Below, piece after piece: positions 26,556 through 33,527 of a stretch of DNA of 64,000 nucleotides. The stretch is from Microbacterium thalassium. GTDB lineage: Bacteria; Actinomycetota; Actinomycetes; Actinomycetales; Microbacteriaceae. The notes below the pieces were generated by a model. The model searched no databases, was not told the DNA's origin, and saw only the letters and a program-made list of their open reading frames with translations. A program made the position numbers and the translations under genes. Every line of letters begins with the position of its first letter. Within the stretch, counting starts at the first letter, position 1. The stretch is taken from the NCBI RefSeq assembly GCF_014208045.1, contig NZ_JACHML010000001.1:2666001-2730000 (forward strand), in the 5' to 3' direction.

Positions 26556-27922
26556 CCGATGACGTCGAAGTCGGCGCCGAGGGCGTCGAGCTTCGTGAAG
26601 AACTTCTCGTAGCCGCGCCGGATGATGCCGACGTTGCGGACGATCGACTCGCCCTCGGCCGCGAGTGCCGCGATGACGTAGCTGTATCCGCCGCGCAGGT
26701 CCGGCACCTCGACGTCGGCGCCGTGCAGGGGCGTCGGGCCGTTGATGACCGCGGCCTGCTCGAGGGCGCGCCGCGGAACGCGGCGGTCGGAGCTGGCGAT
26801 CCCGTCGGGGTGCACGACGATGTCGGCGCCCATCTGGTTGAGCGCGTCGGTGAAGCCGAGGCGGTTCTCGTACACGGTCTCGTGCACGACCGAGGTGCCC
26901 TCCGCCTGCGTCAGCGCCACGATGAGCGGCTGCTGCCAGTCGGTCATGAAGCCGGGGTGCACGTCGGTCTCGACGACGACGGGCTTGATCGATCCGCCGC
27001 GGCGGAACTGGATGCCGTCCTCGCGGACGTCGAACCAGCCGCCCGCCTTGCGGAAGACGTTGAGGAAGGTCAGCATCTCCTGCTGGCGCGCTCCGCCGAC
27101 GAAGATGTCGCCGTCGGTCGCGAGCGCCGCGCACGCCCACGACGCAGCCTCGTTGCGGTCGAAGATGCACCGGTGGTCGTAGCCGCGCAGCTCGTCGACG
27201 CCCTCGATCAGGATGACGCGATTGGGCTCGTACGAGATGATCGCGCCCATCTTCTGGAGCACGGCGATGAGATCCATGATCTCGGGCTCGATCGCCGCGT
27301 TTCGCAGCTCCGTGACGCCCTTCGCCTTGACCGCCGTCAGGAGCACCTGCTCGGTCGCGCCGACGCTCGGGTACGGCAGCTCGATCTCGGCCCCGGTGAG
27401 GCCGTCGGGGGCGGTGATGCGGATGCCCTCGTAGCTCTTGTCCACGATCGCGCCGAACGCGCGCAGCGCGTCCATGTGGAAGTTGATGGGCCGGTCGCCG
27501 ATGCGGCAGCCGCCGAGGTCGGGGATGAGCGCCTCGCCCAGCAGGTGCAGCAGCGGACCGCAGAACAGGATCGGGATGCGCGAGGCGCCCGCGTGGGCGT
27601 CGATCTCCTCGAAGTGGGCCGTGACGGCGCCGCTCGGGTCCAGGCGCAGCGAGCCGGGCTCGTCGCCCTCCTCGACCGTGACTCCGTGCACCTCCAGCAG
27701 GGAGCGCACGACGTTGACGTCGCTGATCCCGGGAATGTCGCGGAGGGTGCTGGGCGTCTCGCCGAGCAGGGCTGCGACCATCGCCTTGGTGGCGAGGTTC
27801 TTCGCGCCCTTGACCTCGACGCGGCCGGTCAGCGGCCGTCCGCCGCGGATGCGCAGTGTCTCAGCGGACACGTCGGGCTCCTCTGCCTTGTCGTCGGTGC
27901 TGGCGCTGAGAAGCGACTTCAT
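26552..27922 (-). CDS. murA: UDP-N-acetylglucosamine 1-carboxyvinyltransferase MurA
   Basis: 456 aa. First committed step of peptidoglycan synthesis. The substrate lysine-asparagine KN is at 41-42 (KGAKNLATKAMVAALL), and the fosfomycin-target cysteine is C139 (GGCRIGDRPINFH), so this copy should be fosfomycin-sensitive, unlike the Asp-bearing mycobacterial enzyme. The ATG at 27922, with GAGGT before it, was chosen over an upstream in-frame start at 28111 inside leuD. An N-terminal ~20 residues (SASTDDKAEEPDVSAE) precede the core. Follows leuD by 71 nt. Confidence 0.95.
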   Translation of the reverse strand: MKSLLSASTDDKAEEPDVSAETLRIRGGRPLTGRVEVKGAKNLATKAMVAALLGETPSTLRDIPGISDVNVVRSLLEVHGVTVEEGDEPGSLRLDPSGAVTAHFEEIDAHAGASRIPILFCGPLLHLLGEALIPDLGGCRIGDRPINFHMDALRAFGAIVDKSYEGIRITAPDGLTGAEIELPYPSVGATEQVLLTAVKAKGVTELRNAAIEPEIMDLIAVLQKMGAIISYEPNRVILIEGVDELRGYDHRCIFDRNEAASWACAALATDGDIFVGGARQQEMLTFLNVFRKAGGWFDVREDGIQFRRGGSIKPVVVETDVHPGFMTDWQQPLIVALTQAEGTSVVHETVYENRLGFTDALNQMGADIVVHPDGIASSDRRVPRRALEQAAVINGPTPLHGADVEVPDLRGGYSYVIAALAAEGESIVRNVGIIRRGYEKFFTKLDALGADFDVIG

Positions 27923-27993
27923 CCGGTGGACCTCACTTGTGTCATCGAGGGTGGTGAACCCCGCCCGACCGGGTTGTGGTCGGGCTCGTGGCG

Positions 27994-28590
27994 TCATCGG
28001 ACGGGTGTCGTCCGCGGCCGCCATGCCTCGCGGCGGGCCTCGAACTCCGCGATCTTGTCTTCGTTGCGCAGCGTGAGCCCGATGTCGTCGAGCCCTTCGA
28101 GAAGCCGCCACCTAGTGTAATCGTCGATCTCGAATGGCACCCGGATATCGCCGACCTCGGCGGTGCGGGTCTCGAGGTCGACGGTCATCTGCACACCCGG
28201 GTCGGCGTCGAGCGCCGCCCAGATCGCCTCGAGATCCGCCTCGCTGATCACACCGGTGACCAGTCCCTGCTTGCCGGCGTTCCCGCGGAAGATGTCGGCG
28301 AACTTGGGGCTGAGCACGACGGCGAAGCCGTAGTCCCGCAGCGCCCAGACGGCGTGCTCGCGGCTGGATCCGGTGCCGAAGTCGGGGCCCGCGACGAGAA
28401 TGCTCGCCTTCTCGTAGGCCGGCTGGTTCAGGACGAACTCCGGATCCTGACGCCAGTTGGCGAACAGCGCGTCGTGGAAGCCCGTCTTGGTGACGCGCTT
28501 GAGGTAGACGGCCGGGATGATCTGGTCGGTGTCGACGGCGGAGCGCTTCAGGGGAGCTGCGACGCCGGTGTGCGTGGTGAACTTCTCCAT
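27994..28590 (-). CDS. leuD: 3-isopropylmalate dehydratase small subunit LeuD
   Basis: 198 aa. With LeuC it isomerises 2- to 3-isopropylmalate in leucine synthesis. Typical features: [18 protein letters not shown] near the start, [15 protein letters not shown] (~70-85) and [15 protein letters not shown]. The ATG at 28590 follows leuC by 1 nt, so the subunits are made together. Regulated with leuC by the leader peptide at 30144-30188. Confidence 0.96.
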
Positions 28591-28591
28591 G

Positions 28592-30073
28592 TCAGGCCTC
28601 CGCCCCGGTCGTCGCGACCGGCTCGGGCACCGGCTCCAGGTCGCTCGGGCTCGACAGCGTTCCGCGGACCGCGGTGGCCGCGGCCACGAGCGGCGACACG
28701 AGGTGCGTGCGGCCGCCCTTGCCCTGCCGCCCCTCGAAGTTTCGGTTCGATGTCGACGCGCACCGCTCGCCGGGAGCGAGCTGGTCGGGGTTCATGCCCA
28801 GGCACATCGAGCATCCGGCGAAGCGCCACTCGGCGCCGAAGTCCTCGAAGACCTTGTCGAGGCCCTCGGCCTCGGCTTCGATGCGCACGCGCGCCGAGCC
28901 CGGCACGACCATGACCCGCACGCCATCGGCCTTCGTGCGGCCCTTGATGACCGAAGCGAACGCGCGCAGGTCCTCGATGCGGCTGTTGGTGCACGAGCCC
29001 ATGAAGACCGCGTCGACAGGGACCTCCTTCAGCGGCGTGCCCGCCTCGAGGTCCATGTACTCCAACGCCCGCTCGGCGGCGGCGCGCTCGTTCGCGTCGG
29101 CGAAGTCGGAGGGCTCCGGCACGACGTCGTTCAGCGAGACGCCCTGTCCCGGGTTCGTGCCCCACGTGACGAACGGCTCGAGCTCGTTCGCGTCCAGGAA
29201 GACCTCGGCGTCGTAGACGGCGCCCTCGTCGCTGGGGAGCGTGCGCCAGTACGCGACCGCCTCGTCCCAGTCCGCGCCCGTCGGCGCGTGGTCGCGCCCC
29301 TTCAGGTACGCGAAGGTCTTCTCGTCGGGGGCGACCATGCCGGCGCGGGCGCCGGCCTCGATCGACATGTTGCACATGGTCATGCGCCCCTCCATCGAGA
29401 GGGAGCGGATGGCGCTGCCGCGGTACTCGAGCACGTAGCCCTGGCCGCCGTTCGTGCCGATCTTGGCGATGACGGCGAGGATGATGTCCTTGGCCGTGAC
29501 GCCGGGCTTGAGCTCTCCCTCGACGGTGATCGCCATCGTCTTGAAGGGCTTCAGCGGCAGCGTCTGCGTGGCGAGCACGTGCTCGACCTCGCTGGTGCCG
29601 ATGCCGAACGCCATGGCGCCGAACGCGCCGTGCGTCGAGGTGTGCGAGTCGCCGCACACGACCGTGATCCCGGGCATCGTCAGGCCCAGCTGCGGTCCCA
29701 CGACGTGCACGATCCCCTGCTCCGCGTCGCCGAGCGAGTGCAGGCGCACGCCGAACTCGTCGGCGTTGCGCCGCAGCGTCTCGATCTGCGTGCGGCTGGT
29801 GGGATCGGCGATCGGCAGGTGGATGTCCAGCGTCGGGGTGTTGTGGTCCTCGGTCGCGATGGTGTGCTCGAGGCGGCGCACCGGCCGGCCGTCGGCGCGC
29901 AGTCCGTCGAACGCCTGCGGGCTCGTGACCTCGTGCACGAGGTGGAGGTCGATGTAGATGAGGTCGGGCTGGCCGTCCTCGCCCTTGACCACGAGGTGGT
30001 CGTCCCACACCTTCTCGGCGAGGGTGCGCGGGCGCTCGGGAATGGCGGATGCGTCGTTGGACGTGCTGCTCAT
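28592..30073 (-). CDS. leuC: 3-isopropylmalate dehydratase large subunit LeuC
   Basis: 493 aa, aconitase family, 4Fe-4S enzyme. Cluster ligands are the Cys of [11 protein letters not shown] and the CxxC of [13 protein letters not shown]. Other motifs: [10 protein letters not shown] at the N-terminus, [22 protein letters not shown] at 30073 is preceded by AGGAGAAAC; a TTG 33 nt further up is less likely. The ~70-nt leader between it and the leucine leader peptide holds overlapping inverted repeats, so expression should respond to leucyl-tRNA. Confidence 0.96.
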
Positions 30074-30120
30074 GCTCAGTCGTTTCTCCTGGGAAGGGGG
30101 GATCAAGCCCGCGACGATCT

Positions 30121-30159
30121 CCGCGACGAGGGAGGCCTGGGAACTAGGACTCGTCGCGG
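30121..30159 (-). promoter_or_regulatory. leuCD leader hairpin overlapping the leader-peptide stop
   Basis: CCGCGACGAG (30150-30159 on the minus strand) pairs exactly with CTCGTCGCGG (30121-30130), with a 19-nt loop. The first arm contains codons RDE of the leader peptide, so a ribosome there blocks the hairpin. A near copy of the second arm (ATCGTCGCGGG, about 30109-30119) can compete. No T tract follows, so control could be Rho-dependent or translational. Confidence 0.6.
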
Positions 30160-30188
30160 CCGCTAAGGAGAAGGCGAGCGATCCGCAC
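30144..30188 (-). CDS. Leucine leader peptide for leuCD
   Basis: Fourteen codons: GTG start, then [13 protein letters not shown] and TAG. Three consecutive Leu codons (CTT CTC CTT) sit mid-peptide, the hallmark of a leucine attenuator, and CTT is rare in this genome, which would sharpen the response. TACCCT (30195-30200) ends 6 nt before the GTG, so the peptide is probably translated from a leaderless mRNA. The stop lies in the loop of the hairpin at 30121-30159. Amino-acid leader peptides controlling branched-chain genes are established in actinobacteria; this instance is read from sequence. Confidence 0.75.
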
Positions 30189-30194
30189 GTCGTT

Positions 30195-30217
30195 AGGGTA
30201 TCACCCGCTCGAACCGG
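30195..30217 (-). promoter_or_regulatory. leuCD promoter
   Basis: On the minus strand GGTTCG...TGATACCCTA: a TACCCT -10 (30195-30200) with a TG two bases before it (extended -10) and a weak -35-like GGTTCGAG. Start of transcription would fall on or next to the leader-peptide GTG. Confidence 0.55.
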
Positions 30218-30241
30218 CCCGCCCGAGCGTGACGCGGGACG

Positions 30242-31354
30242 TCAGCGTTCGTCGCGCCCGGGCTCGGGGTCCACGATGGGCGGTGTGCCCTTCTGCTCGG
30301 CCACCTCTGCGGCCGCGCGCTCGGCATCCGTTCCCCCCGAGCCGTCCGGGAGCGACGCGCGGTCCGCGGACGACATGTGCGGGCGGCGGGTGGAGGCGAG
30401 GCTGGCCACGGTGGCGACGAGCATCGCCGCGACGATGACGGCGAGCGAGGCCCACGTGCTGATCTCGGGAGCCCAGTCGACATGCTCGCCGCCGTTGATG
30501 AACGGCAGCTCGTTGACATGGAGCGCATGGAGGAAGAGCTTCACGCCGATGAACGCGAGGATGAACGCGATGCCGTAGTGCAGGTACTTGAGCTTGTCGA
30601 GCAGTCCCCCGAGCAGGAAGTACAGCTGCCGCAGCCCCATGAGGGCGAAGAGGTTCGCCGTGAAGACGATGAACGGGCTCTGCGTGATACCGAAGATGGC
30701 GGGGATCGAGTCGATGGCGAAGATCAGATCGGTGAAGCCGATCGCGATGAAGACCAGCACCATCGGCGTCCAGATCTTCTTGCCGTTCACGACCGTGCGC
30801 AGCTTCGCCCCGTCGTACTCGTCGCTGATGTCGATGAAGCGGCGCAGGAACCGGACGATGCCGGTCTCCTTCTGCGCCTCGTCCTCGTGCGCACCCGGGA
30901 ACGCCTGCCGCCAAGCGGTGTAGACCAGGAACAGCCCGAAGATGTAGAAGATCCAGCTGAAGTTCTCGATCAGCGCAGCGCCGAGCAGGATGAAGATCGC
31001 GCGCAGGATCAGCGCGATGATGATGCCCACCATCAGCACCTCCTGCTGGTAGCGGCGCGGCACCGCGAACTGGCTCATCAGCAGGACGAAGACGAACAGG
31101 TTGTCCACCGACAGGCTGTACTCGGTCAGCCATCCCGCGATGAACTGCCCCATCGCATCATGGCTGCCGGTGACCATGAGCATGACGACCGCGAAGACGA
31201 GCGCCAGGCCGACGTAGAAGACGACCCACAGGCTCGCCTCCTTCATCGACGGGATGTGCGGGCGCTTGAGGATCAGCAGAAGATCGGCGATGAGGACGAG
31301 CGTCAGCACGACGAGCGCGCTGATCTCGAACCAAACGGGGATCTCGAAGCCCAT
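30242..31354 (-). CDS. TerC-family integral membrane protein (probable Mn2+ exporter)
   Basis: 370 aa with about nine membrane segments. The family core is present: LTEYSLSVDNLFVFVLLMSQF with the conserved Asp, and IGFTDLIFAIDSIPAIFGIT with a second Asp pair. TerC/Alx proteins export manganese and help load exported metalloproteins. A 60-residue hydrophilic acidic C-tail ends the protein. A yybP-ykoY-like Mn riboswitch lies just upstream (31361-31485), supporting the metal role. The cytoplasmic loop FLRRFIDISDEYDGAKLR is typical. Confidence 0.88.
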   Translation of the reverse strand: MGFEIPVWFEISALVVLTLVLIADLLLILKRPHIPSMKEASLWVVFYVGLALVFAVVMLMVTGSHDAMGQFIAGWLTEYSLSVDNLFVFVLLMSQFAVPRRYQQEVLMVGIIIALILRAIFILLGAALIENFSWIFYIFGLFLVYTAWRQAFPGAHEDEAQKETGIVRFLRRFIDISDEYDGAKLRTVVNGKKIWTPMVLVFIAIGFTDLIFAIDSIPAIFGITQSPFIVFTANLFALMGLRQLYFLLGGLLDKLKYLHYGIAFILAFIGVKLFLHALHVNELPFINGGEHVDWAPEISTWASLAVIVAAMLVATVASLASTRRPHMSSADRASLPDGSGGTDAERAAAEVAEQKGTPPIVDPEPGRDER

Positions 31355-33331: not shown

Positions 33332-33404
33332 TGACCCCAGCGGGATTCGAACCCGCGTTACCGCCGTGAGAGGGCGGCGTACTAGGCCGCTATACGATGG
33401 GGCC
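33332..33404 (-). tRNA. tRNA-Glu (anticodon CTC), copy 1
   Basis: 73 nt, cloverleaf visible: acceptor GGCCCCA with TGGGGTC (one G-T pair), anticodon arm CGCCCTCTCACGGCG with CTC, T arm GCGGGTTCGAATCCCGC. CCA is not encoded. Identical to copy 2, 50 bp upstream in transcription direction; ends near the shared terminator at 33292-33328. Confidence 0.95.
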
Positions 33405-33454: not shown

Positions 33455-33527
33455 TGACCCCAGCGGGATTCGAACCCGCGTTACCGCCGTGAGAGGGCGG
33501 CGTACTAGGCCGCTATACGATGGGGCC
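33455..33527 (-). tRNA. tRNA-Glu (anticodon CTC), copy 2
   Basis: Base-for-base identical to the copy at 33332-33404. The two form a tandem read from the minus strand. GAG is the main Glu codon in this GC-rich genome, so extra dosage is reasonable. Confidence 0.95.

Follow-up and report, generated by a model that had tools for sequence, protein, structure and literature searches.

The closest described counterpart of the leader analysed here is the LEU element, which lies before leuA in Actinobacteria and has three features, namely an upstream ORF in which Leu codons follow one another, a pseudoknot, and a base stem in which these codons pair with the downstream Shine-Dalgarno (SD) sequence, as set out in the excerpted text of Seliverstov 2005 (PMC1262725). 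When Leu codons of the S. coelicolor leuA leader were mutated, the outcome is reported there to be inconsistent with classical attenuation, and a protein ligand was favoured; the 2005 study left the element open as an attenuator, a riboswitch-like structure or a protein site. The terms leuC, leuCD and leuB are absent as whole words from its main text. In Streptomyces lividans, the LeuL1 peptide (MRFGLLLLSCRGEGL) before leuA is reported to be leaderless and to have no typical terminator, and the excerpted text of that paper gives leucine leaders at leuA and leuS, not at leuC (PMC8079986). The leuCD operon is regulated in Streptomyces and Corynebacterium by NdgR/LtbR, a protein of the IclR family (PMC10331944, PMC6515235, in the excerpted text). 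Our literature search of open-licence papers returned no leucine leader at leuC in titles or abstract openings. Polycysteine leaderless short ORFs of mycobacteria are said, in the title of Canestrari 2020, to attenuate operonic genes. Judged by that title, the leuC leader would likewise be a leaderless short ORF devoted to one amino acid, with leucine at leuC and cysteine there.

By sequence comparison, the leader before leuC is a real and well-conserved feature, a new placement of the homologous LEU element that brings new comparative support for how the element works. We consider it quite probable that this leader, a second copy in the genome of the LEU element known from Actinobacteria, governs leuCD through ribosome-mediated translational attenuation. 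The parts identified in the window (the whole 64,000-nt stretch of Microbacterium thalassium DNA that was analysed, from a genome of one 3.7 Mb contig) are as follows.

30200-30195, minus strand: -10 box TACCCT, 6 nt upstream of the leader start; TGA precedes it, extended -10 like
30188-30144, minus strand: leader ORF, GTG at 30188; kept before leuC across Microbacteriaceae
30173-30165, minus strand: Leu codon run CTT CTC CTT, which contains CUUCUCCUU; putative sensor codons, which also supply the anti-SD strand of helix C, the base stem
30159-30150, minus strand: helix A 5' arm CCGCGACGAG, the RDE codons
30146-30144, minus strand: leader stop TAG, inside the loop of helix A
30133-30138, minus strand: helix B 5' arm AGGCCT; helix B would make a pseudoknot with helix A
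30130-30121, minus strand: helix A 3' arm CTCGTCGCGG, 10-bp arm
30117-30108, minus strand: incomplete repeat of the helix A 3' arm, TCGTCGCGGG, giving the alternative helix A'
30105-30110, minus strand: helix B 3' arm GGGCTT, which pairs with AGGCCT
30084-30090, minus strand: leuC SD AGGAGAA, complementary to UUCUCCU of the Leu run
28592-30073, minus strand: leuC, the controlled gene, ATG at 30073
27994-28590, minus strand: leuD, directly 3' of leuC; co-transcription assumed

We take the last two genes to be leuC and leuD, having recognised them from sequence and position. The leader ORF has 14 codons and a stop (GTG CGG ATC GCT CGC CTT CTC CTT AGC GGC CGC GAC GAG TCC TAG). The first-pass annotation had drawn attention to three consecutive Leu codons before leuC, including the rare CTT, to a TACCCT ending 6 nt before the GTG and to a stop codon in the loop of a 10-bp hairpin whose first arm is the RDE codons, and the letters and coordinates bear out each of these. 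CTT is indeed rare, making up 38/1417 Leu codons (2.7%) in the 33 gene-like ORFs of the window. Its reading of the ORF as a leaderless-type Leu leader peptide before leuCD is favoured by the comparative evidence given below, with transcription presumably starting at 30188. Searches with Rfam 15 gave no gathering-score match at the leader, where matches were at chance level only; elsewhere in the window they matched tRNAs only, among them two tandem tRNA genes with equal scores (33332-33404 and 33455-33527, minus strand). The five best named loci for the LeuC of the window are from Microbacterium, and it falls within Microbacterium in the tree. Downstream of leuD, beyond the interval 27922-27994 (minus strand), a presumably murA-like gene begins in the same orientation at a distance of ~70 nt, so that transcription with leuCD is possible.

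The LEU element was described at leuA, and the element of the window stands at leuC; the same model also finds the other copy of this genome at leuA, with a leaderless-type start, four Leu codons, a hairpin and an SD.

G000:C1:2520231-2520330 (locus L111), minus strand: second LEU element, MRVDSLLLLSRRDGASI, before leuA; TACCCT 6 nt before the ATG

The leuC leader thus shares with the described element the upstream ORF with a Leu codon run, and its peptide core is very similar to the LLLLSCRxE of S. lividans LeuL1, as given in the excerpted text (PMC8079986). The element is therefore not specific to leuC, and its distribution was followed at both genes. For R1, the first search model, 26 leuC leaders and the leuA leader of the window genome itself served as training set. 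Among 80 named leuC loci, the element was found in 23/32 whose titles name the genus or family as Microbacteriaceae and in 0/48 of other title; 20 of those 23 loci had been read by eye first and belonged to the R1 training set, with L002, L007 and L010 outside it. Eight more weak matches among the named loci (E 0.32 or worse) were set aside as chance, and model R2, run on the 57 named loci without the element, gave no convincing match (best E 0.063). In L010 (Herbiconiux daphne, 1742-1837) the element lies ~660 nt upstream of the LeuC match, and the intervening stretch, which has many Ala, Pro and Asp codons, might be an N-terminal extension or else an inserted gene.

All 149 genomes of the genus have a match, mostly two, as do 191/199 genomes of the Microbacteriaceae sample. 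In 86 Microbacteriaceae genomes (85 genera), every one of the 141 listed matches lies before leuA (86) or leuC (55), on the same strand as a LeuA or LeuC match and at most 700 nt upstream of it. The element is present at leuA in 81/81 LeuA-bearing genomes (LeuA has a PF00682 match) and at leuC in 55/83 LeuC-bearing genomes; the five extra leuA matches stand before a second LeuA gene, whose identity to the query is 49-57%. The first-pass annotation had named absence of the Leu codons and the pairing from homologous upstream regions as grounds against its reading; across Microbacteriaceae both recur, and the check did not refute that reading. A chance ORF plus hairpin is ruled out by this conservation. 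The 28/83 leuC genomes without a model match at leuC suggest that the element is dispensable there, and they lend something to the reading in which the pairing limits leuC translation constitutively and leucine is not sensed. That reading is nevertheless very improbable, since matches in Microbacteriaceae are confined to leucine genes, and at leuA as well as at leuC the Leu codons persist, with nearly synonymous variation. Upstream of leuC, a GGTATACC palindrome was seen where the LEU match is absent (L205 in G179, L244 in G217, and L014 and L016 of Curtobacterium), which is possibly the operator of another regulator.

The central pairing of the leader, between the Leu run and the leuC SD, was missed by the first-pass annotation. 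For pairing tests, 140 upstream regions were fetched (80 of the 83 leuC genomes and 60 of the 81 leuA genomes), and 115 of them had a model match (55 leuC, 60 leuA). Two without a parsed leader and three without arms by pattern were dropped, leaving 52 leuC and 58 leuA leaders, from 98 of which alignment A2 and model R2 were made. The stop codon lies inside the loop of helix A in all 110 parsed leaders, at one fixed distance from the arm in 77/110. The predicted minimum-energy fold of the window leader includes helix C (AGGAGAA:UUCUCCU). This helix is often kept while both strands change, as where CCTTCTTC goes with GAAGAAGG (leuC, G170) or CTTCTGTG with CACAGGAG (leuC, G168), and it is weak in a few leaders (e.g., -2.2 and -2.9 kcal/mol in G188 and G212). 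With its own partner, helix C of the leuC leaders reached -10.7 kcal/mol vs. -9.4 kcal/mol with permuted partners, the observed value being matched in 0/5000 permutations; at leuA, too, 0/5000 permutations matched the observed value. Helix A gave 0/5000 (leuC) and 4/5000 (leuA); helix B gave 298/5000 and 507/5000 and helix A' 1318/5000 and 226/5000, so that support for these two is weaker than for A and C. Control pairings were reached in 1550/5000 (leuC) and 141/5000 (leuA) permutations for the Leu run with the 3' flank, and in 490/5000 and 1477/5000 for the RDE arm with the SD.

Two copies per genome in one family provide a built-in evolutionary control. Because most genomes carry two elements, the leuC and leuA partners can be exchanged inside one genome, which removes the effect of relatedness. 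Across 39 genomes and six tests, this swap gave uncorrected p values of 6.5e-5 for helix A, 0.0033 for A', 0.0044 for C and 0.012 for B; after correction (x6), helix C stood at 0.026 and helix B at 0.07. For helix C, 26 genomes were better with their own partner, 11 worse and 2 equal. The controls gave p = 0.39 (Leu run with 3' flank) and p = 0.052 (RDE arm with SD). An earlier run on 41 genomes, with a poorer start-codon rule, had given p = 0.0048 for the double difference (leuC alone 0.16, leuA alone 0.006). The swap control therefore supports the Leu run:SD pairing, the base stem that the leuC leader shares with the LEU element. As for the pseudoknot, helix A co-varies strongly at the leuC and leuA leaders and helix B more weakly. 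When the 98-leader alignment was fitted to the structure of the model, helix A showed two-sided changes in 4/10 pairs (25 cells), and 0/500 shuffles were as high; four of five measures beat all 500 shuffles, the exception being the count of further pair types (300/500). The partial copy of the second arm, which the first-pass annotation had cast as a competitor, is present as described; the competitor role fared less well, with a low swap p but permutation counts across genomes as given above, and the copy was rejected as the main competitor, being conserved only in part.

Next to this RNA evidence stands the pattern of the codons. Codon columns were anchored on the Arg codon of the helix A arm, and the three preceding Leu positions were counted. 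These are Leu in 46, 52 and 54 of 54 leuC leaders and in 59/59 leuA leaders each, although leaders were parsed with a demand for Leu residues, which biases the count towards Leu and makes the codon evidence less than independent. At leuA, bases 1 and 2 of the three Leu codons are C and T in 59/59 leaders, and the third bases vary in the first two codons (38 C, 17 T and 4 G; 31 C and 28 T). The last Leu codon is CTT in 59/59 leuA and 53/54 leuC leaders, its third base being fixed too, and the outermost Leu codon differs at position 2 in 8/54 leuC leaders. Arm codons for Asp and Glu have an invariant third base and a variable second one, which changes mostly from A to G and matches the helix pairs. 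It thus appears that the Leu run is constrained mainly as Leu codons and the arm as RNA. CTT and CTC together make up 158/174 Leu codons of the leuC runs vs. 740/1417 in the gene-like ORFs of the window, as would be needed of an anti-SD strand. Upstream of the leader start, a TAnnnT box ends at a distance of 6-8 nt in 53/54 parsed leuC and 58/59 parsed leuA leaders, the box nearest 7 nt being chosen.

These data bear on whether the leader peptide is incidental, which we judge to be quite improbable. It is true that the RNA constraint on helix A is strong and that the S. coelicolor Leu-codon mutants, as reported in the excerpted text (PMC1262725), would fit an incidental peptide. The inner Leu codons at leuA, however, vary at third positions only, which suggests selection as codons: C and U both pair with G, so that C/T exchange at the first and second positions would be tolerated as well if the run were nothing but an anti-SD strand. 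The spacing between the -10 box and the leader start is also fixed. Translation of the leader is supported by the codon-position pattern, whereas a protein ligand was favoured in the excerpted text of PMC1262725. The same S. coelicolor mutants count as evidence against attenuation; mutations of the Leu codons would, nonetheless, alter the sensor and the anti-SD strand of helix C together, so they are not decisive.

We propose that the leader would work as follows. RNA polymerase would start at or beside the GTG, yielding a leaderless mRNA whose leader is translated at once. When leucine is plentiful, the ribosome would clear CUU CUC CUU and finish at UAG, where it would be expected to occlude the arm, with the Leu run exposed immediately behind. 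The free Leu run could then pair with the leuC SD, helix C closing over helices A and B, and leuC translation would be low. When charged tRNA-Leu is scarce, the ribosome would halt on the Leu run, helix C would not form and leuC would be translated. In folding predictions (assumed ribosome footprint -15 to +13, no pseudoknots in the model), the unpaired probability of the SD in 52 leuC leaders was 0.28 for the free RNA, 0.53 when a ribosome occupied the first Leu codon and 0.31 when it stood at the stop; for 58 leuA leaders the values were 0.19, 0.52 and 0.22. In this calculation helix C is lost by construction once the Leu run is masked. The predicted opening of the SD went up in 44 and down in 4 of 52 leuC leaders.

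No terminator-like site was found in 29950-30400, in agreement with the remark of the first-pass annotation that a T tract is absent. A classical transcription attenuator, with an intrinsic terminator and T run, was accordingly rejected for the leuC leader. The absence of a T tract is explained if the Leu run:SD pairing acts by translational SD sequestration, for which no terminator is required. It is unlikely that leader translation instead governs Rho-dependent or intrinsic termination before leuC: short RNAs are reported at mycobacterial leaders, such as the leuA sRNA candidate bands of M. tuberculosis in the excerpted text of PMC3526491, but no terminator-like site was seen at this locus, and control by termination would not call for the observed co-variation between the SD and the Leu run. 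Together, the lack of a terminator-like site and the evidence for SD pairing favour translational attenuation by SD sequestration.

The operon controlled by the leuC leader is the one under NdgR/LtbR elsewhere, a protein regulator there vs. an RNA leader here. As query we used the ORF of locus L049, which we take to be NdgR by its position and resemblance. A homologue lies on the opposite strand in the leuC upstream flank of 46/48 loci not titled Microbacteriaceae (all except L053 and L070) and in the flank of 0/32 Microbacteriaceae loci. At E <= 1e-30, an NdgR-type regulator was found in 0/86 Microbacteriaceae genomes; in the order sample it was found in 0/8 genomes inside the family and in 107/111 outside, the latter serving as a positive control for the search. 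Among the genomes searched, leuC copies of the LEU element occur only in Microbacteriaceae: the R2 search, with positions compared by eye, placed a LEU match near leuC in 0/105 LeuC-bearing genomes of the order sample outside the family. In that sample, 78/111 outside genomes have a LEU match somewhere and 33/111 have none; since R2 was made from Microbacteriaceae leaders and run with stricter filters, diverged leuC copies outside the family could be missed. All 22 outside loci L319-L340 proved to be leuA, as did 11 of 14 further regions, the other 3 standing before a small ORF close to a leuB-like gene, and the remaining order-wide matches were compared only with LeuC positions, by eye. Within the sensitivity of R2, the RNA element at leuC and the absence of NdgR share the Microbacteriaceae boundary.

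The natural reading of this shared boundary would be that the RNA element replaced NdgR. By these searches, 28/83 leuC genomes of Microbacteriaceae have neither, so we infer the order and cause of the change. In the LeuC tree (44 rows), the presence label needs 5 changes (bootstrap 4-7), and one gain at leuC with later losses is possible. Upstream of leuC in G165 (L185), the A arm is recognisable by eye and the Leu run is not intact; such a decayed LEU remnant fits loss of the element. We lean slightly towards a rewiring of leuCD from a transcription factor to an RNA cassette, in which NdgR/LtbR would have been lost in Microbacteriaceae and the leuA attenuator copied before leuC (in some genomes it also stands before second leuA genes), giving a regulon of repeated cis leaders, with Val/Ile/Leu runs in related leaders elsewhere in the order, as if retuned. 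If true, a portable RNA cassette would have taken the place of a protein regulator at one and the same operon, and the one-family boundary makes this testable.

Three leaders outside Microbacteriaceae carry mixed runs.

G361:C2:337290-337385 (L341): mixed-run leader MARQLVILSSRGEFR
G446:C1:1093465-1093560 (L343): mixed-run leader MTQRVVILIRRGEF
G345:C1:863397-863489 (L345): mixed-run leader MRHALILRCRGGA

Their sensor codons look retuned to Val/Ile/Leu, judging by the codons of the runs. The small protein that follows these leaders (20-26 residues, ARQALQESMD core) was matched in 8/119 genomes of the order (L355-L362), and in the printed stretch of five of these eight no LEU-like leader was seen near it by eye. 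In L341, L343 and L345, the small ORF is followed by a gene with a GGDGIGPEV motif that we take to be leuB-like, and the ORF next in L343 and L345 presumably encodes a branched-chain aminotransferase, which it resembles.
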